From contig NZ_LN831029.1 of the NCBI RefSeq assembly GCF_001457475.1, positions 4,712,001 through 4,776,000 of the forward strand: a DNA stretch of 64,000 nucleotides, in the 5' to 3' direction. Under the pieces are notes generated by a model. The model did no database searches. It was not told the DNA's origin and saw only the letters and a list, made by a program, of their open reading frames with translations. Shown piece after piece: positions 1,521 through 27,887 of the stretch. Position numbers and translations under genes: made by a program. How positions within the stretch are numbered: the first letter of the stretch is position 1; the number at the start of each line of letters is the position of its first letter. This stretch comes from Achromobacter xylosoxidans. GTDB lineage: Bacteria > Pseudomonadota > Gammaproteobacteria > Burkholderiales > Burkholderiaceae_B.

Positions 1521-2624
1521 ATGGCCCGCATCGCTTCCGTCGAGATCCTGCAGGTCGACCTGCAGCCCAAGGTCCGGCGCACCGACGCCGTGCAAAGCTT
1601 CGAGCGCCAGGAAACGCCGATCGTGCGCATCACCGACGCCGATGGCGTCACCGGCACCGGCTACAGCTACACCATCGGCACCGGCGGTTCGTCCGTGATC
1701 CGGCTGCTGGACGACCACCTGGCGCCGCTGCTCCTGGGCCGCGAGGCTGACGACATCGAACAGCTCTGGCGCGACCTGATGTACCGCGTGCACGCCACCA
1801 CCGTGGGCGCGCTGACCTCGATCGCGCTGGCCGCCATCGACACCGCGCTGTGGGACCTGCGCGCGCGCCGCGCCGGGCTGCCGCTGCACCGGCTGGCGGG
1901 CGGCGCCAAGGCGGACATCCCGCTCTACACCACCGAGGGCGGCTGGCTGCATCTGGCGCCGTCGCAACTGGTGGAAGAGGCCCTCAAGGCCCGCGAGGCC
2001 GGCTTCGGCGGCGCCAAGATCAAGGTCGGCCGGCCGCACGTGGCCGAGGACGTGGCGCGGCTGTCCGCGGTGCGCGCCGCCGTCGGCGCGGACTGGGACA
2101 TCATGACCGACGCCAACCAGGGCTTCTCGCTACCCGAGGCGATCCGCCGCGCGCGCTGTTTCGAGCCGCTGGACCTGGCCTGGTTCGAGGAGCCCATCCA
2201 CGCCGACGACGTGCAGGCCCATCGCCGCCTGAGCCAGTCCACCACCCTGCCCATTGCCGTGGGTGAATCGCTCTACAGCCTGTCGCAATTCAAGGACTAC
2301 CTTCAGGGCGAGGCCTGCTCCATCGTGCAGGTGGACGTGGGCCGCATCGGCGGCATCACGCCGTGGCTCAAGGTGGCGCACATGGCCGAAGCCTACAACG
2401 TGCCGGTGTGCCCGCACTTCCTGATGGAGATCCACGTGGCGCTGTGCTGCGCGGTGCCCAACAGCCGCTGGCTGGAATACATCCCGCAGCTGGACATGGT
2501 GACCGAGCACGGCATGCGCATCGAGAACGGCCGCGCCATTGCGTCGGACGCGCCCGGCCTGGGCATCGCCTGGGACTGGGACCGCATCGGCAAGCTGACC
2601 CTGCACCGCAGCCGGCACGGTTGA
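1521..2624 (+). CDS. Mandelate racemase/muconate lactonizing enzyme family protein
   Basis: Enolase-superfamily enzyme that abstracts the alpha-proton of a carboxylate through a Mg-stabilised enediolate. It could be a dehydratase or a racemase. Visible active-site residues are the KxK pair K166/K168, metal ligands D197, E223 (WFEEP) and E249 (GES), and the D272/H299 dyad, which is the mandelate-racemase subgroup pattern. Its 367 residues are typical. The start has an AGGAGG site just upstream. It sits 13 bp after the binding-protein gene, so transport and catabolism are probably one operon. The exact substrate (a sugar acid or a hydroxy acid) is not deducible. Confidence 0.9.
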   Translation: MARIASVEILQVDLQPKVRRTDAVQSFERQETPIVRITDADGVTGTGYSYTIGTGGSSVIRLLDDHLAPLLLGREADDIEQLWRDLMYRVHATTVGALTSIALAAIDTALWDLRARRAGLPLHRLAGGAKADIPLYTTEGGWLHLAPSQLVEEALKAREAGFGGAKIKVGRPHVAEDVARLSAVRAAVGADWDIMTDANQGFSLPEAIRRARCFEPLDLAWFEEPIHADDVQAHRRLSQSTTLPIAVGESLYSLSQFKDYLQGEACSIVQVDVGRIGGITPWLKVAHMAEAYNVPVCPHFLMEIHVALCCAVPNSRWLEYIPQLDMVTEHGMRIENGRAIASDAPGLGIAWDWDRIGKLTLHRSRHG

Positions 2625-2662
2625 AAGCGCGAGGCGGCCGGCCCATGCGGGCCGACCCGCCC

Positions 2663-4261
2663 TCACGCGGCGGCAACATCCTCCAGGATCATCTCGGCGC
2701 CGCGCTCGGCCACCATCATCACCGCCGCCTGGGTGTTGCCCGACACCATCTTCGGCATCACCGAGGCGTCCACCACCCGCAGGCCGGCAATGCCGTTGAC
2801 CCGCAGGCGCGGATCGGTCACCGCGCCGGCATCCGCGCCCATGCGGCAGGTGCCGATCGGGTGATAGATGGTCTGGCCGTTGCGGCGCGCGAAGTCCAGC
2901 CATTGCTCGTCGCTGTCCACATCCGCCCCCGGGCTCAACTCGCTTTCGATATAGCGCTGCATGGCCGGCCGCTGCACGATGCGGCGCGCCACTCGCATGC
3001 CGCCCACCAGGCTGTCGCGGTCGATCTGCGCCGACAGGAAGTTGGGCCGGATCGACGGCGCGGCCAGCGGATCGGCCGACTTCAGGTGGATCGACCCGAC
3101 CGACTCCGGCCGCAGCTGCGCCACGCCGATGGTCATGCCCGGCTCGCGGTCGAGGATGCGCTCGGCCGCGTTGGCATAGCTGGCATGCACGAAGAAATAC
3201 TGCACGTCGGCCGCCGGCAGGTCCGGCGCGCTCTTGACGAAGCCATGCACCAGCCCCGTGCCCAGCGTCAGGATGCCCTTGCGGCGGGTGTAGTAGCGCG
3301 CCACCTGTTGCGCCAGGCGCCAGCCGCGCGACATCTCGTTGAGCGTCACGGTGTTCCTGACCCGCCAGTTCATGCGCGTGGCGAAGTGGTCGATGTAGTT
3401 CTCGCCCACCTGCGGCTGCGCGTGCACCAGCGGAATGCCGAAGGATTGCAGCAGCGCGGGGTTGCCCACGCCCGACAGCTCCAGCAACTGCGGCGACTGC
3501 ACCGCGCCCAGGCACAGCAATGTCTCGCGCCGCGCCCGCACGGTGAATTCCTGGCCGTTCTTGCGGTAGGCCACGCCGACGCAACGCTTGCCCTCGAACA
3601 GCAGCCGCGTCACGTGCGCGCCGCACTCCACCGTCAGGTTCTTGCGGCCGGCGGCGGGCTTGAGGTAACCGTCGACCACGCTCCAGCGGCGGCCATGGTG
3701 CTGCGCCACTTGGTAATAGCCGACCCCGTCCTGGCGGCCGGCGTTGTAGTCCGGGTTGAGCGGCAGGCCATCCTCCTGCGCCGCGCGCAGGAAGGCGTCG
3801 GACAGCGCAAAGCGCTCGGCCACTTCCTCCAGGTGCATCGGCCCGGACTTGCCGCGGGTCTCGCCGCCGGGCTCATAGCGTTCAATCTTGCGGAATACCC
3901 GCTCGGCGGTGCCGCCGCCCCAGCCGGTGGCGCCGGCGGCCTCCCAGCCGTCGTAGTCCTGCGGACGGCCGCGCACGTAGATCATGCCATTGATCAGCGT
4001 CGAGCCGCCCAGGCCCTTGCCGCGCGGCACGGCGATGGTGCGGCCGTAGACGTTGTCCTCCGGCTCGGTGGCGAAGCGCCAGTTGTAGTCCGGATTCACC
4101 AACAGCTTGGAAAAGCCCGCCGGGATCGAGATCCACATGCTGCGAGCCTCGTGCCCCGCTTCCAGCATCAGCACCCGGTGGCGGCCATCGGCCGTCAGGC
4201 GGTTGGCCAGGATGCAGCCGGCGGTGCCGCCGCCCGCGATAATGAAGTCGTAGTCGCCCAT
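2663..4261 (-). CDS. GMC-family FAD oxidoreductase (choline dehydrogenase-like)
   Basis: Flavin-dependent alcohol oxidoreductase of the glucose-methanol-choline family. The N-terminus carries the FAD dinucleotide motif GGGTAGCILANRL. The middle has the GMC signatures (PRGKGLGGSTLINGM and a GAVQSPQLLELSG stretch). The C-terminus has the catalytic region HPIGTCRMG and the closing segment GLRVVDASVMP. Its 532 residues match the family. There is no signal peptide, so it is cytoplasmic or peripheral. It is the last gene of a minus-strand operon with the AroE-like and split transketolase genes and starts 19 bp after the AroE-like stop. It probably oxidises a primary alcohol or polyol intermediate. 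The substrate is inferred only from class. Confidence 0.92.
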   Translation of the reverse strand: MGDYDFIIAGGGTAGCILANRLTADGRHRVLMLEAGHEARSMWISIPAGFSKLLVNPDYNWRFATEPEDNVYGRTIAVPRGKGLGGSTLINGMIYVRGRPQDYDGWEAAGATGWGGGTAERVFRKIERYEPGGETRGKSGPMHLEEVAERFALSDAFLRAAQEDGLPLNPDYNAGRQDGVGYYQVAQHHGRRWSVVDGYLKPAAGRKNLTVECGAHVTRLLFEGKRCVGVAYRKNGQEFTVRARRETLLCLGAVQSPQLLELSGVGNPALLQSFGIPLVHAQPQVGENYIDHFATRMNWRVRNTVTLNEMSRGWRLAQQVARYYTRRKGILTLGTGLVHGFVKSAPDLPAADVQYFFVHASYANAAERILDREPGMTIGVAQLRPESVGSIHLKSADPLAAPSIRPNFLSAQIDRDSLVGGMRVARRIVQRPAMQRYIESELSPGADVDSDEQWLDFARRNGQTIYHPIGTCRMGADAGAVTDPRLRVNGIAGLRVVDASVMPKMVSGNTQAAVMMVAERGAEMILEDVAAA

Positions 4262-4280: not shown

Positions 4281-5090
4281 TCAGCCCTGCGCGGCCGGCG
4301 CCACGCCCATCATTTCCGCCATCAGCTCGATCTGCCCGGCCAGCATCGGCGCGCCGTAGTGCACCTTGCAGCCGCGCGCCCGCGCCGCCACCAGCAGCGG
4401 CGTGTCGGCCGGCTGCATGATGACCTCGCACACCAGTTGGTCCGGCGTCAACCGCGCCGCGTCCAGCGGCAGCGCGTCGTCCGGTTTCATGCCGAGCGAG
4501 GTGCCATTGACCACCAGGTCGTGGCCCGACGGATCGGCCGTGCCGACGCTGATGCGGGCCTCGGGGTGCAGCGACAGGATGCGTGCCTTCAGGTCCTCGG
4601 CCTTGGCCGGCGTGCGGTTGGCAATCGTCAACCGCGACACGCCCGCCTGCGCCAGCGCGAAGCCGATGGCATTGGCCGCGCCGCCGGCGCCGGCCAGGTA
4701 GGCGCTCTTGCCTTCGGGCGCCACGCCGTGCGTGCGCAGGCCGCGCACGAAGCCCTCGCCGTCCAGCATGTGCGCCACCAGGCGGCCGTCGGCCTCGCGC
4801 CGCACCACGTTGGCGGCGCCGATCTTGCGCGCCACCGGCGTGGCCTCGTCGGCCAGGGCCAGGATCGCCGCCTTGTGCGGCATGGTGACGATCAGGCCGC
4901 CCAGGTTCTCCAGCCGCCGCAGTCCGGCCACCACCTCGGCCAGGTTGTCGGGCCGCGCATGGAACGGCACGCAGACGCCGTCGAAGCCGATGCGGGCGAA
5001 ATGCTCGTTCAGGCGCTGCGGGGTTTTGACGTGGTAGATCGGGTCGGCCAGGATGCCGAACAGGCGGGTGTTGCCGCTGATTTCCTTCAT
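4281..5090 (-). CDS. Shikimate dehydrogenase-like NAD(P)-dependent oxidoreductase
   Basis: Two-domain dehydrogenase of the AroE/YdiB/quinate dehydrogenase family. It keeps the catalytic lysine (K73 in VTMPHK), the catalytic aspartate (D110) and a Rossmann loop GAGGAANAIGFAL. The substrate pocket is altered: the usual shikimate-binding SxS near the N-terminus reads V21-K-T23 (HVKTP), and the usual HNTD reads HMLD (107-110). It lies in a catabolic operon, not with aromatic biosynthesis genes. I infer a related hydroxy-acid or cyclic polyol substrate rather than biosynthetic shikimate. Start ATG at 5090 has GGAGA upstream. A paralogue elsewhere would be expected to be the real aroE. Confidence 0.85.
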   Translation of the reverse strand: MKEISGNTRLFGILADPIYHVKTPQRLNEHFARIGFDGVCVPFHARPDNLAEVVAGLRRLENLGGLIVTMPHKAAILALADEATPVARKIGAANVVRREADGRLVAHMLDGEGFVRGLRTHGVAPEGKSAYLAGAGGAANAIGFALAQAGVSRLTIANRTPAKAEDLKARILSLHPEARISVGTADPSGHDLVVNGTSLGMKPDDALPLDAARLTPDQLVCEVIMQPADTPLLVAARARGCKVHYGAPMLAGQIELMAEMMGVAPAAQG

Positions 5091-5138: not shown

Positions 5139-6125
5139 CTAGCGTCGCACCAATTCCCGCGCCACCGCCTCGATGCCGGCGCCGTCCAGCCGGTAGTGGG
5201 CGTACAGCGTGGTGGGCGGGGCGATCAGGCTGTATTCGTCGTAGATGCCATGGCGCCGCAGCCGCGTGCCGCTGCCGGCATCGGCCAGCACCTCGGCCAC
5301 CGCCGAGCCCAGGCCGCCCATCACATTGTGCTCTTCCACCGTCAGCAGGACGGACGCCTGCCCGGCCGCCGCCAGCACCGCCTCGCGGTCCAGCGGCTTG
5401 AGGGTGGGCATGTCGATCACGCCCACCGACAGGCCGTCCTCGCGCATGCGGGCGGCCGCTTCCAGCGCCGCGTGCAGCGTGATGCCGCAAGCGATGATGT
5501 TCAGGTCGCTGCCGGTTGAGTGGACGATGGCGCGGCCGAACGCGAACGGCGCGCCGTCCTCGTAGACCTGCGGATCGCGGCCACGGCCGATGCGGAAGTA
5601 GATTGGCTCGGGCCAGTCCACCGAGGCCTTGATGGCGGCGGCCAGTTGCGGACCGTCGGCCGGCGACACCACGGTCAGGCCGGCGATGGCGCGCATGGTG
5701 GAGATGTCCTCGGTGGCGTGGTGCGAGGTGCCATAGAAGCCCAGGCTGATGCCGGTGTGATGGCCGATCAGCCGCACCGGCAATTTGGTGTAGGCCACGT
5801 CCATGCGGATCTGCTCGCAACACAGCAGACCCAGGAACGAGGCGAAGGTCGCCACGAACGGCATCGCGCCGGTGGTGGCCAGCCCGGCCGCGGCCGACAC
5901 CATGTTCTGCTCGGAAATGCCGAACTGCACGTAGCGCTCGGGATAGGCCGAGGCGAAGCGGTTCAGGCCGTTGGAATACTGCAGGTCGGCCGAGCCGGCC
6001 ACCACCGGATGCCCGGCCCGCGCCAGGTCGATCAGCGCGTCGGAAAGATACGACAGCCCGGGGTTCACCGCGTTCAGCGCGCGGTACTGCCAGGAATCTG
6101 GGGAAAGCGTCTGTGCCTGTGCCAT
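5139..6125 (-). CDS. Transketolase family protein, C-terminal subunit (Pyr and C-terminal domains)
   Basis: The second half of a split transketolase or DXS-like enzyme, 328 residues. It carries the pyrimidine-binding domain (FGISEQNMVSAAAGLA, with the glutamate that activates thiamine diphosphate) and the C-terminal domain of unknown binding. It pairs with the subunit encoded immediately upstream: the upstream TGA directly abuts this ATG (6126/6125), so translation is likely coupled. Split transketolases of this type move two-carbon ketol units in sugar catabolism. The GMC and AroE-like partners downstream suggest a dedicated catabolic use rather than the general pentose phosphate pathway. 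Confidence 0.9.
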   Translation of the reverse strand: MAQAQTLSPDSWQYRALNAVNPGLSYLSDALIDLARAGHPVVAGSADLQYSNGLNRFASAYPERYVQFGISEQNMVSAAAGLATTGAMPFVATFASFLGLLCCEQIRMDVAYTKLPVRLIGHHTGISLGFYGTSHHATEDISTMRAIAGLTVVSPADGPQLAAAIKASVDWPEPIYFRIGRGRDPQVYEDGAPFAFGRAIVHSTGSDLNIIACGITLHAALEAAARMREDGLSVGVIDMPTLKPLDREAVLAAAGQASVLLTVEEHNVMGGLGSAVAEVLADAGSGTRLRRHGIYDEYSLIAPPTTLYAHYRLDGAGIEAVARELVRR

Positions 6126-6983
6126 TCAGATCTCGCGGGTCATGATTTCGTCGATGGCGGCCTGCGCGTCCTGCGGCGCCAGGTAGCCCAGATGCCAGCC
6201 GGGTTCGGTCTCCATATAGGAAACGCCCTTGCCCTTGATGGTTTTGGCGATGACGCAGGCCGGCCGCTCGCGCGCCTCGTCCGCGCGCAGCCGCCGCAGC
6301 AGCGCGGTCAGCGCCACCAGGTCGTGGCCGTCGACCTCGTGCACCTCCCAGCCGAAGGCCTGCCACTTGTCGCGCAGCGATTCCACGCCGATCACGTCGT
6401 CGACCTTGCCGTCGAGCTGGTAGCCGTTGCGGTCGATGATGGCGACCAGGCGCGACAGCTTGTGGTGCGCGGCGAACAACGCCGCCTCCCACACCTGCCC
6501 TTCCTGCATCTCGCCATCGCCCAGCATCACGAACACGTTGAAATCGCGCTGGCTCATGCGGCCGCCCAGCGCCATGCCGGCGCCGTTCGAGAGCGCATGG
6601 CCGATGGAGCCGGAGCTGAAATCGACGCCCGGCACCTTGGTCATGTCGGGGTGGTCGCCCAGGGGGCTGCCCAGGCGGGTGTAGCCGTCCAGCAGTTCAT
6701 GCGGGATGAAGCCATGGTCGGCCAGCACCGGGAACAGTCCCACCGCGGCGTGGCCCTTGCCCATCAGGAAGCGGTCGCGGTCCGGCCAGGCCGGCTCGCC
6801 CGGGCGCAGCCGCATCACGTCGTAGTACAGCGCGGCAAAGATCTCGGCGCACGAAAAGACCGAGCTGTAGTGCCCGACCTTGGCGATCTCGATCAGCCGG
6901 ATGGTTTCCAACCGGATGTGGCGGGCCTTTTCCCGCAGCATCCGGACCTCGTCTTCGCTTGGGTCTCCCCGGTCCTGGCGCAT
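6126..6983 (-). CDS. Transketolase family protein, N-terminal subunit (PP domain)
   Basis: Thiamine diphosphate and Mg-binding half of a split transketolase, 285 residues. The motif GDGEMQEGQVWEA with a following N (IIDRNGYQ) is the classic diphosphate-binding signature, and KGHAAVGLFPVLA and SSGSIGHALSNGAGMA are typical transketolase segments. ATG at 6983 has an AAGGAG site 6 bases upstream. It is the first gene of the minus-strand operon that runs to 2663. Its promoter region contains the AT-rich operator at 7006-7018, shared with the divergent GntR gene, so repression by that regulator is likely. Confidence 0.92.
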   Translation of the reverse strand: MRQDRGDPSEDEVRMLREKARHIRLETIRLIEIAKVGHYSSVFSCAEIFAALYYDVMRLRPGEPAWPDRDRFLMGKGHAAVGLFPVLADHGFIPHELLDGYTRLGSPLGDHPDMTKVPGVDFSSGSIGHALSNGAGMALGGRMSQRDFNVFVMLGDGEMQEGQVWEAALFAAHHKLSRLVAIIDRNGYQLDGKVDDVIGVESLRDKWQAFGWEVHEVDGHDLVALTALLRRLRADEARERPACVIAKTIKGKGVSYMETEPGWHLGYLAPQDAQAAIDEIMTREI

Positions 6984-7005
6984 GGCGTCTCCTTCGCTTA
7001 TCAGA

Positions 7006-7018
7006 ATATATGATATAT
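7006..7018. promoter_or_regulatory. Putative GntR operator, ATATATGATATAT (site 1)
   Basis: A 13-bp inverted repeat (two ATATAT arms around one base) in an AT-rich island in otherwise GC-rich DNA, between the divergent transketolase operon and the GntR gene. With two flanking bases (GA) it is identical over 15 bp to the reverse complement of the site at 11969-11981. Placement between divergent start codons fits autoregulation plus control of the catabolic operon. The link to the GntR protein is inference. Confidence 0.7.
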
Positions 7019-7118
7019 AATATACCCATCGCGCTTGAATTGGCCAGGGCGGGATAGAATTCAGCCGGGCGCCGTTTCACGGCCTCCGCCATTCCATCGA
7101 ACCCAAGCCTCGACCGTC

Positions 7119-7823
7119 ATGCCCAGCCTTAAACCGGTAAAAAAAGAGAACCTCTCCGTCAAGGTCTACAACGAGATCCGTAACGCCCTGATCAACGGGC
7201 AGTACGAACCCGGAGAGCGCCTCATCATTGGCGAGCTGGCCCAGGAAATGGGCGTCTCGATCACGCCCGTGCGCGAGGCCATCTTCCGCCTCATCAGCGA
7301 ACAGGGCCTGGAAATGCAGGCCGCCACCGCGGTCTACGTGCCCTACGTCAATTCGGAAAAGCTGCGCGAGATCCAGCAGATCCGCTTCCACCTGGAAGGC
7401 ATGGGCGCGGCCGAGGCCGCCAGGAACATCACGCGCAAGCAACTGGACAACCTGATCGCGCTGCAGAAGGACTTCATCTCCTGCACCTCGACCGATCCCA
7501 AGCGCGCCAGCTACCTGAACCGCAAGTTCCACTTCGGCATCCTGGAAGCCAGCAACAAGCCCATCCTGCGCAATACCGTGGAATCGTTCTGGGTCATCAC
7601 CGGCCCGATCCTCAAGGTGTTCCACATCAAGACGGCCGGGCTGGACTACTCCCAGGATGAACACCGCCACGAGGCCGTGCTGGCCGCGCTGGAGGCGCGC
7701 GACCCCGAAGCCGCCACCAAGGCGATCCAGGCCGACCTGGTGTGGGGCGGCAAGATCATGATCGACTGGCTGGTCGAACGCGAAAAAGAACTCGACTACC
7801 GCCCGCCCGGGCCTCGCAAATAG
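7119..7823 (+). CDS. GntR family transcriptional regulator with FCD domain
   Basis: DNA-binding regulator of the FadR/FCD subfamily, about 234 residues from the chosen start. An N-terminal winged helix (YNEIRNALINGQYEPGERL, then LAQEMGVSITPVREA) is followed by an all-helical FCD ligand domain with metal-ligand type histidines (RKFHFGILEAS, and DEHRHEAVLAALEARD near the C-terminus). A longer ORF opens at 7035, but that extension is low-complexity, so ATG 7119 is preferred. It lies between the transketolase operon and a co-directional dehydrogenase gene and next to an AT-rich palindrome that recurs at two more promoters of this cluster. It probably senses a pathway carboxylate and derepresses the cluster. 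Confidence 0.93.
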   Translation: MPSLKPVKKENLSVKVYNEIRNALINGQYEPGERLIIGELAQEMGVSITPVREAIFRLISEQGLEMQAATAVYVPYVNSEKLREIQQIRFHLEGMGAAEAARNITRKQLDNLIALQKDFISCTSTDPKRASYLNRKFHFGILEASNKPILRNTVESFWVITGPILKVFHIKTAGLDYSQDEHRHEAVLAALEARDPEAATKAIQADLVWGGKIMIDWLVEREKELDYRPPGPRK

Positions 7824-7832
7824 GAAGACTCG

Positions 7833-8900
7833 ATGCTGAAGATTTTCGGCGCTCCCGGCCGCTACATCCAGGGAGCCGGCGCGCTCGACGCGCTGGGCGG
7901 ATACGCCGCCCTGTTCGGCCGCCGCGCCGCCCTGGTCATCGACCGCTACGTGCAGGGCGTGCTGGGCCCGAGAATCGAGGCATTGTGCGGTGCCCACGGC
8001 GTGGCGCTGACGGCCCTGCCGGTCGAGGGCGACATCACGCCCGAATCGATCGCGGCGCTGCGCGCGCAGGCCGCGGCCGCCGGCATCGACATGGTGATCG
8101 CGGTGGGCGGCGGCAAGGCGCTGGACGCCGGCAAGGCGGTGGCCAAGGCCGAGCACTGCCACCTGGTCACGGTGCCGACGGTGGCCTCCAACGACGCCCC
8201 CACCAGCAAGAACTACGTGCTGTACGACGCCCATCACAACCTCCTGGCGGTCGAGCACATGCTGTTCAACCCCACCATCGTGCTGGTCGACACCGCCATC
8301 ATCGCCACCGCGCCGGCGGCGTTCTTCCGCGCCGGCCTGGGTGACGCCATCTCCAAGAAATTCGAAGCCGAACAATGCGCCCGCAACGGCGGACGCAACA
8401 TGTACGACGGCGTCCCGCCGCTGACCGCCCAGTTGATCGCCGACGGTTGCCTGCGCACGCTGCTGGCCGACGGCGCCGACGCGCTGGCCGTGGCCGGCAG
8501 CGGCCAGCCCACGCCCGCCTTCGAACGGGTGGTGGAAGCCATGATCCTGATGAGCGGCCTGGGCTTCGAGAGCGGCGGCCTGTCGATCGCCCACGCCCTG
8601 ACGCGCGGCCTGCCGAAGATCGCCGGGCTGGCCAGCGCGCCGCATGGCCTGCAGGTGGCCGTCGGCCTGCTGGTGCAGCTGGACCTGGAGGCGCGCCAGG
8701 ACGGCATGCTGGCCACCCTGACGCAGTGGTATGAACAGGTGGGGTTGCCCACCACGCTGCAAGCGCTGGGCGCGGCCGCGCCGTCCGACGCCGAACTGGC
8801 GCGGGCGGCCGAGTTGACGCTGGCCGCGCGCCATGCCGCCAATTTCGATCGTCCCCTGGACATCAAGACCCTCGTCGCCGCCCTGCGCCGCCACGCCTGA
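7833..8900 (+). CDS. Iron-containing alcohol dehydrogenase, glycerol dehydrogenase type
   Basis: NAD-dependent, metal-dependent dehydrogenase of the GldA family, 355 residues. Seen are the NAD loop GGGKALDAGKAVA, the TVASNDAPTS segment typical of glycerol dehydrogenases, an aspartate (AGLGDAISKKFEA) and histidines (SIAHALTRG and APHGLQVAVG) at the metal-ligand positions. It starts 9 bp after the GntR gene with AGGAAG upstream, so the two are likely one transcript. It could oxidise a vicinal diol or polyol, or reduce an aldehyde, in the same pathway. The substrate is unassigned. Confidence 0.9.
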   Translation: MLKIFGAPGRYIQGAGALDALGGYAALFGRRAALVIDRYVQGVLGPRIEALCGAHGVALTALPVEGDITPESIAALRAQAAAAGIDMVIAVGGGKALDAGKAVAKAEHCHLVTVPTVASNDAPTSKNYVLYDAHHNLLAVEHMLFNPTIVLVDTAIIATAPAAFFRAGLGDAISKKFEAEQCARNGGRNMYDGVPPLTAQLIADGCLRTLLADGADALAVAGSGQPTPAFERVVEAMILMSGLGFESGGLSIAHALTRGLPKIAGLASAPHGLQVAVGLLVQLDLEARQDGMLATLTQWYEQVGLPTTLQALGAAAPSDAELARAAELTLAARHAANFDRPLDIKTLVAALRRHA

Positions 8901-9038
8901 CGCCCCGCCGCTCGCGCTGGCGGCGTCCCGCGGGCGGCGCCCGCGAGCGCCGCGACCCGCATCCGGCGGGCCGCGCGCCTCCCCATCGGCGGGGGCATCA
9001 ATCCGGCGGCGGCGCGCACGCCCTTGCCCGGCCTGGCG
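8901..9038. other. Short convergent intergenic region with GC-rich hairpins
   Basis: About 140 bp between two convergent genes. It contains overlapping GC-rich inverted repeats (GCGGGC-ggc-GCCCGC around 8930-8945) without a T-tract. It could be a weak transcription barrier. Nothing else is seen. Confidence 0.35.
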
Positions 9039-9974
9039 TCAGAACGCCACGTTGTCGCCGCCCTTCAGGCCCAGCTTGGCGCGGGTATCGGCGGGCGTGG
9101 CCACTTCCAGGTTGAGCGCCTCCAGGATGGTGCGGATGCGCTCGACCTGCGAGCGGTTCGACTCGGCCAGCTGGCCCGGCCCGATCCACAGCGAATCCTC
9201 CAGCCCCACCCGCACGTTCGAGCCCATGGCCGCGCCGATGGTGGCCAGCGGCATCTGGTTGCGGCCGGCGCCCAGGATCGACCATTCGTATTCATTGCCG
9301 AACAGGCGGTCGGCGGTGCGCTTCATGTGCATCAGGTCTTCGGGGTGCGGGCCAATGCCGCCCAGGATGCCGAACACCGACTGGATGAACGGCGGCGACT
9401 TCACCAGGCCGCGGTCCACAAAATGCGCCAGGTTGTACAGGTGGCTGATGTCGTAGCACTCGAACTCGAAACGGGTGCCGTTGGCGTTGCCCAGCTCCAG
9501 GATCGATTCGATGTCCTGGTAGGTGTTGCGGAAGATCAGCGAGCGGCTGTTCTCCAGGTGCTCGCGCTCCCACTCATGCTTGAAGTCCTGGAAGCGGCCC
9601 AGCATCGGGAACAGGCCGAAGTTCATCGAGCCCATGTTCAGCGACGCCAGCTCCGGCTTGAAGGTGGTGGCCGGCCGCATGCGCTCCTGCACCGTCATGT
9701 GCGGGCTGCCGCCGGTGGTGATGTTGATGATGGCGTCGGTCTCGGCCTTGATGCGCTTGAGGAACGGCTCGAACAGCGCCGGGTCCTGCGACGGCTTGCC
9801 GGTCTGCGGGTCGCGCGCATGCAGGTGCAGCACGGCGGCGCCGGCGCGGGCCGCGCCGATGGCGGCCTCGGCGATCTCGTCGGCCGTCACCGGCAGGTGC
9901 GGCGACATGCTGGGCGTGTGGATGGCGCCCGTCACGGCGCAGGTGATCACGACTTTCTGCTTGGCTTTAGCCAT
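9039..9974 (-). CDS. Beta-keto acid cleavage enzyme (BKACE, DUF849)
   Basis: Zn-dependent Claisen-type enzyme of the BKACE/Kce family, 311 residues. The family condenses a beta-keto acid with acetyl-CoA and releases acetoacetate plus a new acyl-CoA. Visible hallmarks are the opening VVITCAVTGAIHTP, metal histidines H50 and H52 in LHLHARDPQTG, and the INITTGGSP segment. It overlaps the upstream dehydrogenase gene by 8 bp, so the likely sequence is beta-hydroxy acid to beta-keto acid to acyl-CoA. The particular beta-keto acid is unknown. Family members act on 3-keto-5-aminohexanoate, dehydrocarnitine and others. Confidence 0.92.
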   Translation of the reverse strand: MAKAKQKVVITCAVTGAIHTPSMSPHLPVTADEIAEAAIGAARAGAAVLHLHARDPQTGKPSQDPALFEPFLKRIKAETDAIINITTGGSPHMTVQERMRPATTFKPELASLNMGSMNFGLFPMLGRFQDFKHEWEREHLENSRSLIFRNTYQDIESILELGNANGTRFEFECYDISHLYNLAHFVDRGLVKSPPFIQSVFGILGGIGPHPEDLMHMKRTADRLFGNEYEWSILGAGRNQMPLATIGAAMGSNVRVGLEDSLWIGPGQLAESNRSQVERIRTILEALNLEVATPADTRAKLGLKGGDNVAF

Positions 9975-10929
9975 TTTCGTCTCCGTTGTCTTGCTGTTGC
10001 TTGTGGCGCATCAGGCGCATCAGTTGTTCGTCGCGCCAGTAGCGGCGCGCCGTCAGGTCATCGTCCGGCAGCAGGCCGCGCCGCTCGGACGCCAGGGCCT
10101 CGACCAGCGCGCCGTCCCAGGGCACGGGTTCGCGCTGGCTGGCGCCGATGGATTGGTACAGCCCGCCGTAGCGCGCGCAGTAGTCGGCAAGGCCGCCGGG
10201 CGCGTTCAGGTCGATGGTCTCGAACGGCCCCATGAACGACCAGCGCAGGCCCAGGCCGTCCTTGACCGTGGTGTCGATGTCCTCGGCGCTGGCGATGCCG
10301 GCGGCGGCCAGGCGGAAGGCCTCGTGCAGCAGCGCGCCCTGCAGGCGGTTGAGGATGAAGCCCTCGATCTCGCGCCGCATCGTCACCGGCTTCTGGCCGA
10401 TATCCAGCATGATGTCGCGCGCCGCCTGCATGGCGGCCTCGCTGGTCCAGGGCGCCGGGCACAGCTCCACCACCGGGATCAGATAGGGCGGATTGACCGG
10501 ATGCGCCACCAGGCAGCGCGCCCGGCCGGGCAGGCCTTCGGTGAATTCGCTGGCAGGAATGCTGGAAGTGGAACTGCCGATGATGGCGTCGGGATCGGCC
10601 GCCGCGTCCAGTTGCGCGAACAGATCGCGCTTCAGAGCCAGCCGCTCGGGCGAGTTCTCCTGGATGTAGCGGGCGCCGGCCAGCGCCTCGGGCAGGCTGG
10701 CGGCCACCTCGATGCGGGCGGCGGCCGCCGCCGCGTCGCGCAGCAGGCCGTGCGCCTGCAATGCATCCAGCTGGCGCCGGATCAGCGCGCCGGCCTCGGC
10801 CAGCATGGCGGCGTTGACGTCGTACAGCCGCACCTGCCAGCCCTGGCGCGCGAACACGATGGCCCAGGCCTGGCCGATCAGTCCGGTGCCGATGATGGCG
10901 GCGCGGCGCCGCCGCGGATCGGCCGCCAT
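9967..10929 (-). CDS. 3-hydroxyacyl-CoA dehydrogenase family protein, lambda-crystallin/L-gulonate 3-dehydrogenase type
   Basis: NAD-dependent beta-hydroxy acid dehydrogenase, 320 residues, the length of mammalian lambda-crystallin (CRYL1). The Rossmann loop IIGTGLIGQAWA opens it. The catalytic region GSSTSSIPASEF, CLVAHPVNPPYLIPVVEL and GFILNRLQGALLHEA, with the tail ARRYWRDEQLMRL, resembles CRYL1 more closely than carnitine dehydrogenase or FadB. The frame stays open upstream, but the start is placed at 10929 because it overlaps the SDR stop as TGATG. It is followed by the BKACE gene (8-bp overlap), so it probably makes the beta-keto acid for that enzyme. The substrate is inferred only as a 3-hydroxy acid. 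Confidence 0.9.
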   Translation of the reverse strand: MAADPRRRRAAIIGTGLIGQAWAIVFARQGWQVRLYDVNAAMLAEAGALIRRQLDALQAHGLLRDAAAAAARIEVAASLPEALAGARYIQENSPERLALKRDLFAQLDAAADPDAIIGSSTSSIPASEFTEGLPGRARCLVAHPVNPPYLIPVVELCPAPWTSEAAMQAARDIMLDIGQKPVTMRREIEGFILNRLQGALLHEAFRLAAAGIASAEDIDTTVKDGLGLRWSFMGPFETIDLNAPGGLADYCARYGGLYQSIGASQREPVPWDGALVEALASERRGLLPDDDLTARRYWRDEQLMRLMRHKQQQDNGDENG

Positions 10930-11711
10930 CAGTAGAGCTTCTGCGTGAAGCCGTCCACCACGATGGCCTGCCCCGTGACGCTGCGGGCGGCCTCGCTGGC
11001 GTTGAACAGCACCATGTTGGCGATGTCGCGCGCCGTGACCATGCGGCCCAGCGCCGCCTGGTTTTCGTAGAGCGCGGCAATTTCCTCGACCGGCTTGTCC
11101 AGCGTCCTGGCCTTGGCCTCGATCACGGCGCGGATGCGCGGCCCTTCGACCGCGCCCGGCAGGATGGCGTTGACGCGGATGCCGTGGCCGCCCAGCTCGA
11201 TCGCCAGCGACTTGGTGAAGCCGATCACCGCCCACTTGGACGCCGAATAGACCGAGCGCCCGGCAAAGCCCAGGTGGCCCGCGGCCGACGACAGGTTGAT
11301 CATGACGCCGGCGCGCGACTGCTTGAGCAGCGGGATGGCCTGGCGCCCGCACAGGAACTGGCCGGTGATGTTGACCGCCAGGGTGCGATCCCAGTCGGCC
11401 TTGGACAAGGTCTCGACGAAACCGGTGGGGCCGGCCACGCCAGCGTTGTTGACCAGGATGTCCAGGCCGCCCAGCTGCTGGCGCACGGCGTCGAACAGGG
11501 CGGCCACGCTGTCTTCATCCGACACGTCGGCATGCACCGCGCGCACGCCGGGCAATTCGGCCGGCAGCGCGGCCAGCCGCTCGCGGTTGACATCGCACAC
11601 CAGCACCGACGCCCCGGCCCGGTGGAACACCTGCGCCATTTCCAGGCCCAGCCCATCGGCGCCGGCGGTGATCAGTACCTTTTTTCCGGCGAAATCCACT
11701 TCCTCGAACAT
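10929..11711 (-). CDS. Short-chain dehydrogenase/reductase
   Basis: Classical SDR of about 260 residues. Coenzyme loop TAGADGLGLEMA (the usual TGxxxGxG is slightly changed), NNAG, catalytic serine (NLSSAAGH) and YSASK are all present, and the C-terminus ends GQAIVVDGF. An in-frame ATG at 11774 would add 21 residues and run through the AT-rich operator, so ATG 11711 with an AGGAG site is preferred. It is the first gene of an SDR-dehydrogenase-BKACE operon. Its promoter region carries a near match to the GntR operator at 11755-11767. Confidence 0.9.
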   Translation of the reverse strand: MFEEVDFAGKKVLITAGADGLGLEMAQVFHRAGASVLVCDVNRERLAALPAELPGVRAVHADVSDEDSVAALFDAVRQQLGGLDILVNNAGVAGPTGFVETLSKADWDRTLAVNITGQFLCGRQAIPLLKQSRAGVMINLSSAAGHLGFAGRSVYSASKWAVIGFTKSLAIELGGHGIRVNAILPGAVEGPRIRAVIEAKARTLDKPVEEIAALYENQAALGRMVTARDIANMVLFNASEAARSVTGQAIVVDGFTQKLY

Positions 11712-11754
11712 GCTCTTTGTCTCCTGGATTCTTGTGCTCAAACGCCTTTTGATC

Positions 11755-11767
11755 ATATAGGATATAT
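11755..11767. promoter_or_regulatory. Putative GntR operator, ATATAGGATATAT (site 2)
   Basis: Matches site 1 (7006-7018) at 12 of 13 bases and lies inside a wider imperfect palindrome, ATCATATAGGATATATGAT (11752-11770). It sits about 40 bp upstream of the SDR start codon on the minus strand, where a repressor would block transcription. Assignment to the GntR regulator at 7119 is inference. Confidence 0.6.
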
Positions 11768-11968
11768 GATTCAAAGGGGAGTTTTCTTGCCATCAAAGCA
11801 GCCATGAAAAGGGCCGCGAAACAGCGTCCGGACAGCGGAATTTGACCTGCCGCGCAGCGGAAAACTGCCCGCAAACGCTTTATTCATGCGGCTTGAGGGA
11901 AATCCCCGATTCAGCCGGCCAAGTCCGGCACTAGAATCCAGGACGAGGTTCTCACACCCCGCCGGCGC

Positions 11969-11981
11969 ATATATCATATAT
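11969..11981. promoter_or_regulatory. Putative GntR operator, ATATATCATATAT (site 3)
   Basis: Exact reverse complement of site 1, and with the following TC identical over 15 bp. It lies 63 bp upstream of the start of the binding-protein gene at 12044 and so would control the branched-chain-type ABC transporter operon. The 11712-12043 gap thus holds two such sites, one for each divergent operon. Nothing else was recognised in the gap. Confidence 0.65.
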
Positions 11982-12043
11982 TCAAAAACAGACGGACGAC
12001 TCAGACAACAGTCCGCATCCAAACCCACAAAGGAGCGTAGACA

Positions 12044-13243
12044 GTGTTCAAGATCAAACAATTCGCCATCGCGCTGGGCCTGTGCGGCGCCATGGCCAGC
12101 GGCACCGCGGCGGCCGACATGAAAGTGGGCGCGCTCTTCCCGTTCAGCGGCGCGCTGGCGTTGCTGGGACAGGAGAGCTATCGCGGCCTGGAACTGGCCG
12201 TCAACGAAATCAATGCCGCCGGCGGCATCAACGGCGAGAAGATCCAGATCATCAAGGCCGACGCGGTCGACCCGACCCAGGCGGTGTCCGAGACCAAGCG
12301 ATTGATCTCATCGAACGTGGTCGGCGTGTTCGGCAGCTACGCCTCGGGCATCTCATACGCGGCCTCGCCCGTGACCGAACTGGCCGGCGTGCCCTACTTC
12401 GAGCTGGGCGCCACCGCCCACAAGATCACCACGCGCGGCTACAAGTACCTGTTCCGCAGCAACCCCAACACCGCGCTGTACGGCGTGTCGGTGGTCAACG
12501 CGCTGCACGACATCATCGGGCCGGGCATGGGCCTGAACCCGAAGGAAGTGCGCATCGGCATCATCCACGAGGACGGCCCCTACGGCACCGACGTGGCCGC
12601 CACCGAGAAAAAGCGCGCCCAGGAACTCGGCTACACCGTGGCCGAGGTGCTGCCCTATTCGGCCAAGACGGTCGACCTGTCCTCGCTGATCCTGCGCCTG
12701 AAGGGCGCCAAGGTCGACGTGGTGCTGCAGACCGCCTACCAGAACGACGCCATCCTGTACTTCAGCCAGGCGCGCGCCGCCGGCTTCAAGCCCAAGGTGG
12801 TGATCGGCGCCGGTGGCGGCTATTCGCTGGCCGACACCGCCAAGGCCGTGGGCGCCGACATGAACGGCGTGTTCGACCTGGACTTCCCGCAGGCGTCCAT
12901 CAATCCGGCCGGCGCGCCCGGCCTGGACAAGTTCCTGGAAGCCTACAAGACCACCTACAAGAGCGACCCGCAGTCCGGCCACAGCCTGACCAACTATGTC
13001 GGCGCCAAGGCCTTCTTCGAAGCCATCGCCAACGCCAAGTCGACCGACAAGGACAAGATCCGCGCGGCCGTGCTGGCGTACAAGAAGCCGGCCGGCCAGA
13101 CCGCCAACGGCTGGGCCTTCGACTTCGGCGAGGACGGCCAGAACAACGCCTCGACCTTCTACGTGATGCAGTGGCAGGATGGCAAGCTGGTCACCATCGC
13201 GCCTGACAACCTCGCGCTGGGCAAGCCCGTCTTCAAGAAATAG
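12044..13243 (+). CDS. Branched-chain amino-acid type ABC transporter substrate-binding protein
   Basis: Periplasmic receptor of the LivJ/Peripla_BP_6 type, 399 residues. A GTG start with AGGAG 8 bases upstream is followed by a Sec signal (KIKQFAIALGLCGAMASGTAAA) and a mature start DMKVGALFPFSGALALLGQ, which is characteristic. It opens the operon that also encodes LivH-, LivMG- and LivF-like parts. In the Burkholderiales such systems often import aromatic or carboxylic acids, so leucine need not be the ligand. The operator at 11969 and the nearby catabolic genes suggest the pathway substrate. Confidence 0.92.
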   Translation: MFKIKQFAIALGLCGAMASGTAAADMKVGALFPFSGALALLGQESYRGLELAVNEINAAGGINGEKIQIIKADAVDPTQAVSETKRLISSNVVGVFGSYASGISYAASPVTELAGVPYFELGATAHKITTRGYKYLFRSNPNTALYGVSVVNALHDIIGPGMGLNPKEVRIGIIHEDGPYGTDVAATEKKRAQELGYTVAEVLPYSAKTVDLSSLILRLKGAKVDVVLQTAYQNDAILYFSQARAAGFKPKVVIGAGGGYSLADTAKAVGADMNGVFDLDFPQASINPAGAPGLDKFLEAYKTTYKSDPQSGHSLTNYVGAKAFFEAIANAKSTDKDKIRAAVLAYKKPAGQTANGWAFDFGEDGQNNASTFYVMQWQDGKLVTIAPDNLALGKPVFKK

Positions 13244-13392: not shown

Positions 13393-14259
13393 ATGGATAT
13401 CTTCATTCAACTGGTCATCAACGGCCTGTTGCTGGGCGGCGCCTACACCATCATCAGCCTGGGGCTGACGCTGATCTTCGGCGTGGTCCGCGTCGTCAAT
13501 TTCGCGCACGGCGAATTCCTGATGATCGGCATGTACGCGGTCTACCTGATCGCGGCGCAGTTCGGCGTGCACCCGTACATCGGCCTGGTGCCGGTGGCGG
13601 TCATCCTGTTCGCACTGGGCGCGCTGACGCAGAAAGGCATCATCCAACCGCTGCTCAACGCCGACCAGCACATCCAGATCTTCGCCACGGTGGGCGTGTC
13701 CACCATCCTGCTGAACCTGGCGCTGGTGATCTTCGGCGCCAACGTGTTCCGCGCCCCGGTGCAACTGGGCACCAGCACCCTGGACGTCGGCAACTACTCC
13801 ATGGTCACCGGCCAGTTGGTGACCTTCGTGGTCGGCCTGAGCCTGGCCGCGCTGCTGCACCTGTTCATGCACCGCACCTACCTGGGCCGCGCGCTGCGGG
13901 CGGTGGCGCAGCACCGCTACGCCGCCACGCTGATGGGGGTGAACGTCAACAACGTCTACGCCATCGCCTTCGGCCTGGGCACCGCCTTCGTCGGCATCGC
14001 CGCGGGCCTCCTGGCGCCGCAGTATCCGGTGTTCCCGACGGTGGGCACGTACTTCGTGCTGACCGCCTTCGTGATCGTGGTGCTGGGCGGCCTGGGCAGC
14101 CTGTACGGCGCGGTGGCCGGGTCGATGATCATCGGCATCGTCGATACGCTGGCCGGTTACTACATCGCCCCCGACCTCAAAGAGGTCGTCTATTTCGGGA
14201 TCTTCCTCTTGATCCTTGTCCTGCGTCCGACCGGCCTGTTCGGCGTCGGCACAGAGTGA
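13393..14259 (+). CDS. Branched-chain amino-acid type ABC transporter permease (LivH class)
   Basis: Inner-membrane permease of 288 residues with about eight hydrophobic segments. The opening (LVINGLLLGGAYTIISLGL) and the VNFAHGEFLMIGMY and TAFVIVVLGGLGSLYGA segments are LivH signatures. It pairs with the LivM-like half of the next protein to form the translocation path. RBS AGAGG precedes ATG 13393. The next gene follows after 22 bp. Confidence 0.94.
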   Translation: MDIFIQLVINGLLLGGAYTIISLGLTLIFGVVRVVNFAHGEFLMIGMYAVYLIAAQFGVHPYIGLVPVAVILFALGALTQKGIIQPLLNADQHIQIFATVGVSTILLNLALVIFGANVFRAPVQLGTSTLDVGNYSMVTGQLVTFVVGLSLAALLHLFMHRTYLGRALRAVAQHRYAATLMGVNVNNVYAIAFGLGTAFVGIAAGLLAPQYPVFPTVGTYFVLTAFVIVVLGGLGSLYGAVAGSMIIGIVDTLAGYYIAPDLKEVVYFGIFLLILVLRPTGLFGVGTE

Positions 14260-14281: not shown

Positions 14282-16063
14282 GTGTTTCCCGACTTTCGAA
14301 GCCCCAAAGCCTACGTCAGCCTGATTCTGCTGATCGTCATGTTCATCGTGCCCGTCGCCACGGGCACGCCGTTCTGGACCAACCTGTTCGTCCTGCTGTT
14401 CGTCTTTTCCGCGCTGTCGGTGGCCTGGAACATCGTCGGCGGCTACGCCGGCCAGCTGTCGCTGGGCCACGCGGTGTTCTACGGCATCGGCGGCTACACC
14501 GCCACCCTGCTGACGCAGAACTTCGGCATCTCGCCGTGGTTCGGGATGCTGGTGGGCGCGGCCATCTCGGCCGTGGTGGCCATCATCATCAGCTATCCCA
14601 CGCTGCGGCTGCGCGGGCCGTTCTTCGCGCTGGCCACCATCGCCATCCTGGAAGTGGTGCGGCTGCTGGTGATCCACGAGGAAAGCTGGACCGGCGGCTC
14701 CAGCGGCATCAGCCTGCCGCTGAACATCGGCTGGGCCTGGATCGTGTTCCGCGAGAAGATCAACTACGTGATCATCGCCTTCGGCCTGTTCCTGCTGGTG
14801 ACCTGGGTGTCGTGGACCATCCGCAAGTCGCGCATCGGCCATTACCTGATCGCCATCCGCGAACGCGAGGACGCGGCGCTGGCGGTGGGCATCCACACGG
14901 TGCGCGTCAAGATCATCGCCGCGGTGGTGTCGGCCATGCTGACCAGCATCATCGGCACCTTCCACATCACCTACCTGACCTTCGTCGATCCCAGCTCGGC
15001 GTTCTCGCTGGAACTGTCGATCCAGGTGGCGATGTTCGCGCTGATCGGCGGCCTGGGCACGGTGGCCGGCCCCATCGCCGGCACCTTCCTGGTGCTGCCG
15101 ATCGCCGAGCTGGCGCGCGGCTGGCTGTCCAGCGTGGGCAACGGCATGCACGGGCTGATCTACGGCCTGATCCTGGTGGCGGTGGTGCTGACCATCCCGC
15201 GCGGCCTGGCCGGCGCTTTCGGTCCGGCCATCGAGCGCGCCCTGGCGCGGCTGCCCTACCTGGGCACGCCGCGCGCCCGGCGCCAGCTGGTCGAGGCGGC
15301 CCGCCCGACCGACGCGGCGCGGCGCGAGCAGCCGGTGCTCAAGGCCGAGAACCTGTTCAAGAGCTTCGGCGGCCTGCGCGCCACCAACGACGTGTCGCTG
15401 ACGCTGAACCAGTACGAGATCCTGGGCATGATCGGCCCCAACGGCGCCGGCAAGACCACGGTGTTCAACCTGCTGTCGGGCTTCCTGTCGCCGGACAAGG
15501 GCGCGGTGTCGATGGTCGACGCCAAGGGCAACTGGGTCTCTTGCAGCACGCCGGACCAGTTCGCCCACCAGGGCCTGGGCCGCACCTTCCAGATCGCCAA
15601 GCCGTTCACCGGCCTGACGGTGCTGGAGAACATCATGCTGGGCGCCTTCATCCGCACGTCCGACCGCGAGGAGGCCGAGCAGATCGCGCTCAAGGTGGCC
15701 GAGGAAACCGACCTGCTCAAGTACCTGAACACCGAGGCCCGCAGCCTGACGGTGGGCGGCATGAAGCGGCTGGAGATCGCCCGCGCCCTGGCGATCCGGC
15801 CGCGCATCCTGCTGCTGGACGAGGTCATGGCGGGGCTGAACCCCACCGACATCGAGAAGTCGATCAAGATGATCCGCCGCATCCGCGATTCGGGCGTGTC
15901 GGTGCTGCTGATCGAGCACATGATGCAGGCCACCATGGCGCTGTCGGACCGCATCATCGTGCTGAACGAAGGCGCGGTGCTGGTGAGCGGCGCGCCGAAG
16001 GACGTGGTCGAGAACCCCGCCGTCATCGAGGCCTATTTGGGCAAGGAGTACCAGGATGCTTAA
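14282..16063 (+). CDS. Fused ABC transporter permease and ATP-binding protein (LivM-LivG fusion)
   Basis: One 593-residue polypeptide joins a LivM-type permease (about residues 1-330; GGYAGQLSLGHAVFYGIGGY, several membrane spans, FALIGGLGTVAGPIAGTFLV) to a LivG-type ATPase (about 350-593; Walker A GPNGAGKTTVFNLLSG near 385, signature LTVGGMKRLEIARAL, Walker B ILLLDEVMAGLNP, and a LLIEHMM H-loop). The start is GTG at 14282 with AAGGAG just upstream. An upstream in-frame ATG at 14216 lies inside livH and is rejected. LivM and LivG are usually separate genes. The linker (RARRQLVEAARPTDAARR) is charged and looks intact, so this is a real fusion and not a missed stop. Confidence 0.92.
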   Translation: MFPDFRSPKAYVSLILLIVMFIVPVATGTPFWTNLFVLLFVFSALSVAWNIVGGYAGQLSLGHAVFYGIGGYTATLLTQNFGISPWFGMLVGAAISAVVAIIISYPTLRLRGPFFALATIAILEVVRLLVIHEESWTGGSSGISLPLNIGWAWIVFREKINYVIIAFGLFLLVTWVSWTIRKSRIGHYLIAIREREDAALAVGIHTVRVKIIAAVVSAMLTSIIGTFHITYLTFVDPSSAFSLELSIQVAMFALIGGLGTVAGPIAGTFLVLPIAELARGWLSSVGNGMHGLIYGLILVAVVLTIPRGLAGAFGPAIERALARLPYLGTPRARRQLVEAARPTDAARREQPVLKAENLFKSFGGLRATNDVSLTLNQYEILGMIGPNGAGKTTVFNLLSGFLSPDKGAVSMVDAKGNWVSCSTPDQFAHQGLGRTFQIAKPFTGLTVLENIMLGAFIRTSDREEAEQIALKVAEETDLLKYLNTEARSLTVGGMKRLEIARALAIRPRILLLDEVMAGLNPTDIEKSIKMIRRIRDSGVSVLLIEHMMQATMALSDRIIVLNEGAVLVSGAPKDVVENPAVIEAYLGKEYQDA

Positions 16064-16760
16064 GGTTTCGGATCTGTCGTCGGGCTACGGCAAGAGCCAG
16101 GTGCTCAACGGCCTGAACTTCGAGGTCAATGCCGGCGAGATCGTGACGCTGATCGGCGCCAACGGCGCCGGCAAGACCACCACCCTGAAGACGCTGTGCG
16201 GCGTGGTTCCCGCCACCGCCGGCCGGGTCGAGTTCGAGGGCCGCGACCTGACCAACCGCACGCCCTACGACATCGTCGACGCCGGGATCACCATGATTCC
16301 CGAGGGCCGCCAGCTGTTCCCGCACTTCACGGTGCGCGACAACCTGCTGATGGGCTCGTACAAGCGCGCCGCCCGCCCCATCGTGCAGCGCAAGCTGGAG
16401 GAAGTACTTCAGATCTTCCCGCGGGTGCGCGAGCGCCTGGGCCAGTATGCCGGCTCGCTGTCCGGCGGCGAGCAGCAGATGGTGGCGATCGCGCGCGGCA
16501 TGATGGCCGACCCCAAGCTGCTGGTGTTCGACGAGCCCTCGCTGGGGCTATCGCCGCTGCTGGTGCAGCAGATGTTCGACATCATCCGCGACGTCACCTC
16601 CCACGGCGTCACGGTGCTGCTGGTGGAGCAGAACGTGTTCCGCACGCTGCGCCTGGCCGACCGCGGCTACGTGCTGGAGAACGGCGCCATCGTGCGCACG
16701 GGCACCGGCGCCGAACTGCTGGCCGATCCCCATGTCAAGAAGGCCTATCTGGGCCACTGA
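16056..16760 (+). CDS. Branched-chain amino-acid type ABC transporter ATP-binding protein (LivF class)
   Basis: Second ATPase of the transporter, 234 residues. Walker A GANGAGKTTTLK, signature SLSGGEQQMVAIARG, Walker B LLVFDEPSLGLSP and LLVEQN are seen. Its ATG overlaps the end of the LivM-LivG gene by 8 bp, which implies translational coupling and a 1:1 ratio of the two nucleotide-binding halves. Confidence 0.95.
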   Translation: MLKVSDLSSGYGKSQVLNGLNFEVNAGEIVTLIGANGAGKTTTLKTLCGVVPATAGRVEFEGRDLTNRTPYDIVDAGITMIPEGRQLFPHFTVRDNLLMGSYKRAARPIVQRKLEEVLQIFPRVRERLGQYAGSLSGGEQQMVAIARGMMADPKLLVFDEPSLGLSPLLVQQMFDIIRDVTSHGVTVLLVEQNVFRTLRLADRGYVLENGAIVRTGTGAELLADPHVKKAYLGH

Positions 16761-27771: not shown

Positions 27772-27792
27772 GTCTTATATAAGATATAAGAC
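27772..27792. promoter_or_regulatory. Perfect 21-bp palindrome upstream of acnA
   Basis: GTCTTATAT-AAG-ATATAAGAC is a 9-3-9 perfect inverted repeat 95 bp before the acnA start, in an AT-rich patch. Its form fits an operator for a dimeric regulator of the GntR (FadR) type and may overlap the acnA promoter. It differs from the ATATATGATATAT sites near 7,000 and 11,900, so a different regulator is likely. The rest of the 27584-27887 gap shows nothing else recognisable. Confidence 0.65.
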
Positions 27793-27887
27793 ATAGACCG
27801 AACCCGCGCCGCTGTCGCCCGGAATGACAAACGCGCCGAAACGCCTGAAAATGCCGGCTTTACGCGGGCAAAACCACGGAGTCCATC

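Follow-up and report, generated by a model that had tools for sequence, protein, structure and literature searches.

A conserved AT-rich palindrome as the probable operator of a local GntR/FCD regulon in a catabolic gene cluster of Achromobacter xylosoxidans

The window analysed here is a stretch of 64,000 nucleotides from Achromobacter xylosoxidans (contig NZ_LN831029.1, positions 4,712,001 to 4,776,000), and it carries a catabolic gene cluster in which three operons are each preceded by a copy of one AT-rich palindrome, ATATAT-N-ATATAT. This element is real and conserved and, judging from sequence comparison, is most likely the operator of a local regulon of the cluster's own GntR/FCD-family regulator. 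No paper on the regulon or its operator was found in the literature searched, and the control proposed is of a well-supported but fairly ordinary local kind. The sites and the gene proposed to read them are listed below.

7006 to 7018, plus strand: operator O1, ATATATGATATAT, in the gap that separates the transketolase operon from the divergent gntR operon
7013 to 7025, plus strand: overlapping one-mismatch copy of O1, an additional half-site at a 7-bp step
11752 to 11770, minus strand: operator O2, a 19-bp dyad ATCATATA-GGA-TATATGAT before the operon of a short-chain dehydrogenase (SDR), a 3-hydroxyacyl-CoA-dehydrogenase-type enzyme (HCDH) and a BKACE protein
11969 to 11981, plus strand: operator O3, ATATATCATATAT, the reverse complement of ATATATGATATAT, before the transporter operon
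7119 to 7823, plus strand: GntR-family regulator (PF00392 and PF07729, FCD), the proposed reader of the operator and part of the constant core described below

An earlier note on this DNA had described three such sites, and its coordinates, the reverse-complement relation, the single mismatch at 11755-11767 (a 13-mer contained in the O2 dyad) and the 15-bp identity of O1 and O3 with their flanks (7004-7018 is the reverse complement of 11969-11983) were all confirmed in the sequence. Its placement of the sites also stood, as the transketolase, SDR-HCDH-BKACE and transporter operons are each preceded by one, and O1 is common to the transketolase operon and the divergent operon of gntR and an iron-containing alcohol dehydrogenase (Fe-ADH). 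The AT-rich sites do lie, as claimed, in otherwise GC-rich DNA, with a GC content of 0.688 for the window and 0.54 and 0.52 for the two site-bearing intergenic regions. The note's description of gntR as the only regulator of the region holds for the cluster (2.6-18.5 kb), beyond which there are two LysR-type genes, at 22180 and 26654.

The element is nearly unique in the genome. For ATATATGATATAT with up to two mismatches the shuffle expectation in the window was 0.00, and for ATATATNATATAT a first-order Markov model predicts 0.0006 exact matches and 0.045 matches within one mismatch in 6.81 Mb, against two exact matches and five within one mismatch observed in the 6.8-Mb genome. These five fall at four places, namely the three window sites (O1 twice, overlapping) and one place 3 Mb away, at genome position 1732390, which lies inside an open reading frame (ORF) of an AT-rich stretch and was set aside as background. 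Whole-genome counts at two mismatches (35 for the motif and 25 for a reversed-pattern control) do not point to a larger regulon, and no targets beyond the three sites are therefore claimed. That the three matches arose by chance, or are recent functionless copies of one sequence, would agree with the identity of two of them over 15 bp, but with a chance expectation near zero and with conservation across genera (GntR about 54-100% identical) despite diverged flanks, this explanation is hardly credible.

The site is conserved at orthologous promoters, for which 48 loci with gntR relatives were obtained from a scan of genome contigs, 47 of them with a site (up to one mismatch) before gntR. Upstream counts were made on 60 sequences, including the window, the 48 loci and 11 of 18 further stretches (L088-L093 and L101-L105), using the 220 bp before placeable start codons. 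Rows were dropped if the gene was absent, if no start codon could be assigned at most six residues from where the alignment begins or if less than 150 bp of upstream sequence was available, which removed 8 rows for gntR, 32 for transketolase, 20 for SDR, 10 for the binding protein and 9 for the shikimate-dehydrogenase-like gene. Among the remaining loci, the site was found upstream of gntR in 51 of 52, of the transketolase gene in 28 of 28, of the transporter binding-protein gene in 50 of 50 and of the SDR gene of the BKACE operon in 33 of 40, six of the seven misses being fused operons; for the shikimate-dehydrogenase-like gene the count was 13 of 51. Upstream of internal genes there was none (0/190; Fe-ADH 0/42, BKACE 0/40, GMC oxidoreductase 0/51 and LivH 0/57). 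These counts are not independent, given that the loci share ancestry and a large part of them come from a single genus, and one stretch (L105) is the same contig as L040, which gives 50 of 51 for gntR and 49 of 49 for the binding protein in distinct genomes. The binding-protein gene of L101 was dropped by the placement rule, though a one-mismatch site precedes it. In the only locus counted as a miss for gntR (L052, 57% identical and labelled Rhizobiales), the gene lies downstream of a dehydrogenase ORF and of one half of the transketolase, the latter truncated by the contig end, and the gntR promoter is probably off the contig.

The operator columns are far more conserved than the surrounding DNA, averaging 1.88-2.00 bits compared with 0.46-0.61 bits in the flanks at three promoters and 1.29 bits at the transketolase promoter, for which the countable loci were less numerous and more closely related. 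At the level of genes, seven were present in 45 of 45 loci, namely gntR, the GMC oxidoreductase, the shikimate-dehydrogenase-like protein, the periplasmic binding protein, LivH, the fused LivM-LivG and LivF, and among this constant core gntR is the only regulator. This count covered 44 of the 48 loci together with L101 (L008, L014, L026 and L052 were omitted as short or cut) and considered the ORFs of window positions 1-24000, with antisense ORFs set aside.

Further, the palindrome was shown to move with the operons through rearrangement. The 13 matches before the shikimate-dehydrogenase-like gene are loci in which the transketolase genes do not lie in between, so that this gene becomes the first of the leftward operon, at the site. 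In six fused loci (L033, L034, L043, L044, L046 and L051) the BKACE operon is situated downstream of the transporter genes and in the same orientation, and there the SDR gene has no site of its own; in each of the six an exact site immediately precedes the binding-protein gene. A single site lies between divergent SDR and binding-protein genes in L035, L037 and L039, and one named locus carrying the cluster, L036 (Comamonas), has the transporter on the other side of the cluster with the site retained. In L101, where GntR is 54% identical, one-mismatch copies are present at both promoters.

The motif also co-occurs with the regulator gene. A gntR match at E 1e-40 was obtained in 27 of 151 genomes of the family and was at least 77% identical in 26 of these, and exact ATATATGATATAT was present in all 26 genomes with a close gntR compared with 10 of the 125 others, among which the 27th match (G126) was counted. 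Fisher's test gives P 2e-21, a value that overstates the evidence because the genomes are related. The ten motif-positive genomes with no close gntR are G007, G048, G078, G121 and G140 (0.7-0.8 Mb, one genus) and G012, G028, G051, G107 and G129, and the motif surroundings were examined in four of them (G012, G028, G107 and G129, as loci L100, L097, L099 and L098, respectively). In searches beyond the family, only the window's own gntR was matched among 369 genomes of the class, and 399 genomes of the order gave only five matches at E 1e-55, all from the same family; both searches scored few candidates per genome, and distant orthologues could be missed. The earlier note had proposed scanning this and related genomes to see whether the 13-mer co-occurs with orthologues of this regulator, which is the case, and it had held random scatter of the motif and lack of conservation before orthologous operons to speak against its reading, neither of which was observed in the counts above. 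Its proposal of a GntR regulon over three operons is in these respects supported by sequence comparison, through conservation, the following of operons, co-occurrence and the presence of a sole regulator in the core.

The regulator itself has an N-terminal GntR winged helix-turn-helix (PF00392, 52.8 bits, cut-off 27) and a C-terminal FCD domain (PF07729, 68.5 bits, cut-off 24.3), and it is the one of the genome's 30 FCD matches that lies near the sites. Its nearest solved relative is E. coli McbR/YncC (4p9f, E 6e-29), with an identical SITPVREA stretch. The protein does not reach the NCBIfam cut-off of PRK11414 (136.8 bits vs 225), which we take to be the McbR model, nor that of TIGR03338 for PhnR, the Burkholderiales phosphonate regulator (76.9 bits vs 271.5). 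According to a 2026 paper (PMC13343897), McbR sites seem to include ATATAT, and McbR has roles in stress, biofilm formation and virulence with very many AT-rich sites, in contrast to the three sites in one catabolic cluster here. The FadR-subfamily regulons of a 2015 PLoS One comparison (PMC4494728) mostly have palindromic operators, with weaker half-sites 7-12 nt from the centre that are comparable to the copy at 7013-7025. The closest functional parallel is the deoxyribonate/BKACE cluster of Pseudomonas simiae (PMC6365646), in which, as here, a gntR-like gene lies beside SDR and BKACE genes with a conserved upstream palindrome. The palindrome there is GTGATCAC, compared with ATATATNATATAT in the window, the transporters are of the MFS rather than the ABC type, and the word transketolase is absent from that paper.

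How the sites would act can be approached through their position relative to start codons and to candidate promoters, for which two further features are relevant.

7055 to 7060, plus strand: conserved TAGAAT-like box, candidate -10 element of the gntR promoter
11932 to 11937, plus strand: conserved TAGAAT-like box, candidate -10 element of the transporter-operon promoter

TA[GAT]AAT is found at +49/+50 from the start of O1 in 42 of 51 loci and at -35 to -37 from the start of O3 in 43 of 50. If these boxes are the -10 elements, the transporter operator would fall within the first part of the transcript, whereas the operator at gntR would precede the gntR promoter, so that gntR may escape repression; both promoter assignments are put forward as candidates from sequence. 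Additionally, a promoter-like TGGCCA-N16-TATATT on the minus strand (the transketolase strand) overlaps O1, a promoter-like TTCTCA-N17-TATCAT overlaps O3, and TA[GAT]AAT occurs at the offset of the 7013-7025 copy, overlapping O1, in 45 of 51 loci. These overlaps are what could be expected if the element were a conserved AT-rich core promoter (-10 or UP-like) and not an operator. We judge this very unlikely, since nearly all 13 columns in both arms of the dyad are at about 2 bits, a separate conserved TAGAAT-like box is present at two promoters, the sequence is nearly unique in the genome, and the median distance to the start codon varies among the four operons (28, 48, 68 and 95 bp).

We consider it very probable that the palindrome instead serves as operator for the GntR/FCD regulator encoded in the cluster itself and that the three operons form a local repressor regulon. 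The median distance from site centre to start codon, 28 bp for transketolase and 48 bp for SDR, leaves little room except for a promoter overlapping the operator, which points to repression. In the proposed mechanism, a GntR dimer would bind the palindrome at the three sites and, by masking either the promoter or the point where the transcript starts, would repress the transketolase, BKACE and transporter operons. A substrate or intermediate of the pathway, probably a carboxylate carried or made by the products of the cluster genes, would release the regulator, and all three operons would then be turned on together. The gntR promoter (the box at 7055) is probably outside the operator, about 50 bp beyond it, and gntR may thus stay on or be weakly controlled.

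A number of observations weigh against this assignment or parts of it. In another genus, the 13-mer lies beside a GntR relative of 30% identity in three genomes (L097, which is from G028, and L095 and L096, two gntR-bearing genomes in which this arrangement is an extra site); it also lies beside a GntR-type gene of another kind, as judged by eye, in L094, and beside other genes in L098-L100, and it is therefore not exclusive to the cluster's GntR. The operator does not have the GT...AC core usual in the FadR subfamily, whose common consensus is given in PMC4494728 as NyGTM-N0-1-KACNy with TKGT/ACMA boxes; the same source names BioR (TTATMKATAA) and NanR as exceptions, and as the consensus is common but not universal, the regulator stays in the FadR/FCD subfamily with an atypical operator. 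The ATATAT motif of McbR is second-hand, as PMC13343897 cites another study for it, and the choice of repression over activation is read from geometry alone. Finally, the reversed-pattern control has no exact match in the genome of the window but four within one mismatch, about as many as the five of the motif, and the two are about equally frequent at one mismatch in 12 other genomes too; the four control matches, which were traced in the window's own genome only, are O1 shifted by one base plus TATATAAGATATA, which is a different element and accounts for the other three. The occurrence of the same 13-mer near other regulators and the 30 FCD matches in the genome could also suggest that the sites are read by some other protein, for instance a different FCD regulator or a nucleoid protein that binds AT-rich DNA. 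This is very unlikely given the strong co-occurrence of the 13-mer with gntR, the site at gntR itself in nearly all loci and the absence of any other regulator from the conserved core.

Some surroundings of the motif and its distant matches are of interest in their own right. In L095-L097, at around 2000-2050, ATATATGATATAT lies between divergent hydroxyacid-dehydrogenase-like and aminotransferase-like genes (identified by eye), the latter followed by the GntR relative, and this arrangement is possibly a second regulon with the same operator. In L099, an exact and a one-mismatch copy of the motif, sharing their flanks, are located 166 bp apart at 1844-2022, between the 3' end of a minus-strand ORF (2170-3447) and the start of an arginase-like ORF (655-1569, named by eye). 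A two-mismatch match at 27777 of the window was rejected as a target: it falls in TCTTATATAAGATATAAGAC at 27773-27796, which precedes an ORF starting at 27888 (aconitase-like by eye) and resembles the SdhR palindrome quoted in PMC4494728. The core of TCTTATATAAGATATAAGAC, TATATAAGATATA, is found also at genome positions 1666908 and 5201744.

The remaining genes of the cluster are given below, and their grouping into presumed operons follows from strand and close spacing.

2663 to 4261, minus strand: GMC oxidoreductase, constant core
4281 to 5090, minus strand: shikimate-dehydrogenase-like protein, constant core
5139 to 6125, minus strand: split transketolase, C-terminal half
6126 to 6983, minus strand: split transketolase, N-terminal half
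7833 to 8900, plus strand: Fe-ADH, glycerol-dehydrogenase-like, downstream of gntR
9039 to 9974, minus strand: BKACE, passing NF053538
9967 to 10929, minus strand: HCDH, nearest solved chain lambda-crystallin 3ado
10929 to 11711, minus strand: SDR, first gene of the BKACE operon
12044 to 13243, plus strand: periplasmic binding protein of a branched-chain-type ABC transporter, constant core
13393 to 14259, plus strand: LivH-type permease, constant core, named by eye from the translation
14282 to 16063, plus strand: single-frame fusion of a LivM-type permease with a LivG-type ATPase, constant core
16056 to 16760, plus strand: LivF-type ATPase, constant core
16780 to 17775, plus strand: zinc-binding/quinone-type dehydrogenase at the end of the transporter operon, start codon placed by eye
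17772 to 18539, plus strand: second short-chain dehydrogenase, at the end of the transporter operon

A stretch matching the LivM-LivG fusion was present in all 45 loci compared. The BKACE protein scores 562.7 bits against NF053538 (3,5-dioxohexanoate:acetyl-CoA acetone transferase; cut-off 430), which gives a predicted family and a predicted activity, and in Clostridium scatologenes a BKACE is reported to cleave triacetate (PMC10470551). The nearest solved chain of the GMC oxidoreductase is a chloramphenicol-inactivating oxidoreductase (8b7s, 365.8 bits). This nearest chain and the BKACE family name serve as leads to the pathway only, and the likeness to 8b7s is no evidence of resistance.

We see even chances for a broader picture in which a fixed transporter/GMC/shikimate-dehydrogenase-like core is combined with interchangeable modules (split transketolase, Fe-ADH and BKACE) wired by one operator, such that a copy is carried or shared by each module that is transcribed as a separate unit, and is lacking from a module joined to another operon, and in which the operator, with no GT/AC core, defines an ATATAT-N-ATATAT class that McbR-like FCD regulators read. 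The finding provides a specific candidate regulator-operator pair for a catabolic cluster conserved in Achromobacter, Bordetella and relatives, and the shared operator tells which operons form one pathway. It also illustrates a putative FCD operator that departs from the usual GT/AC consensus, and how operator copies are gained and lost as operons rearrange.

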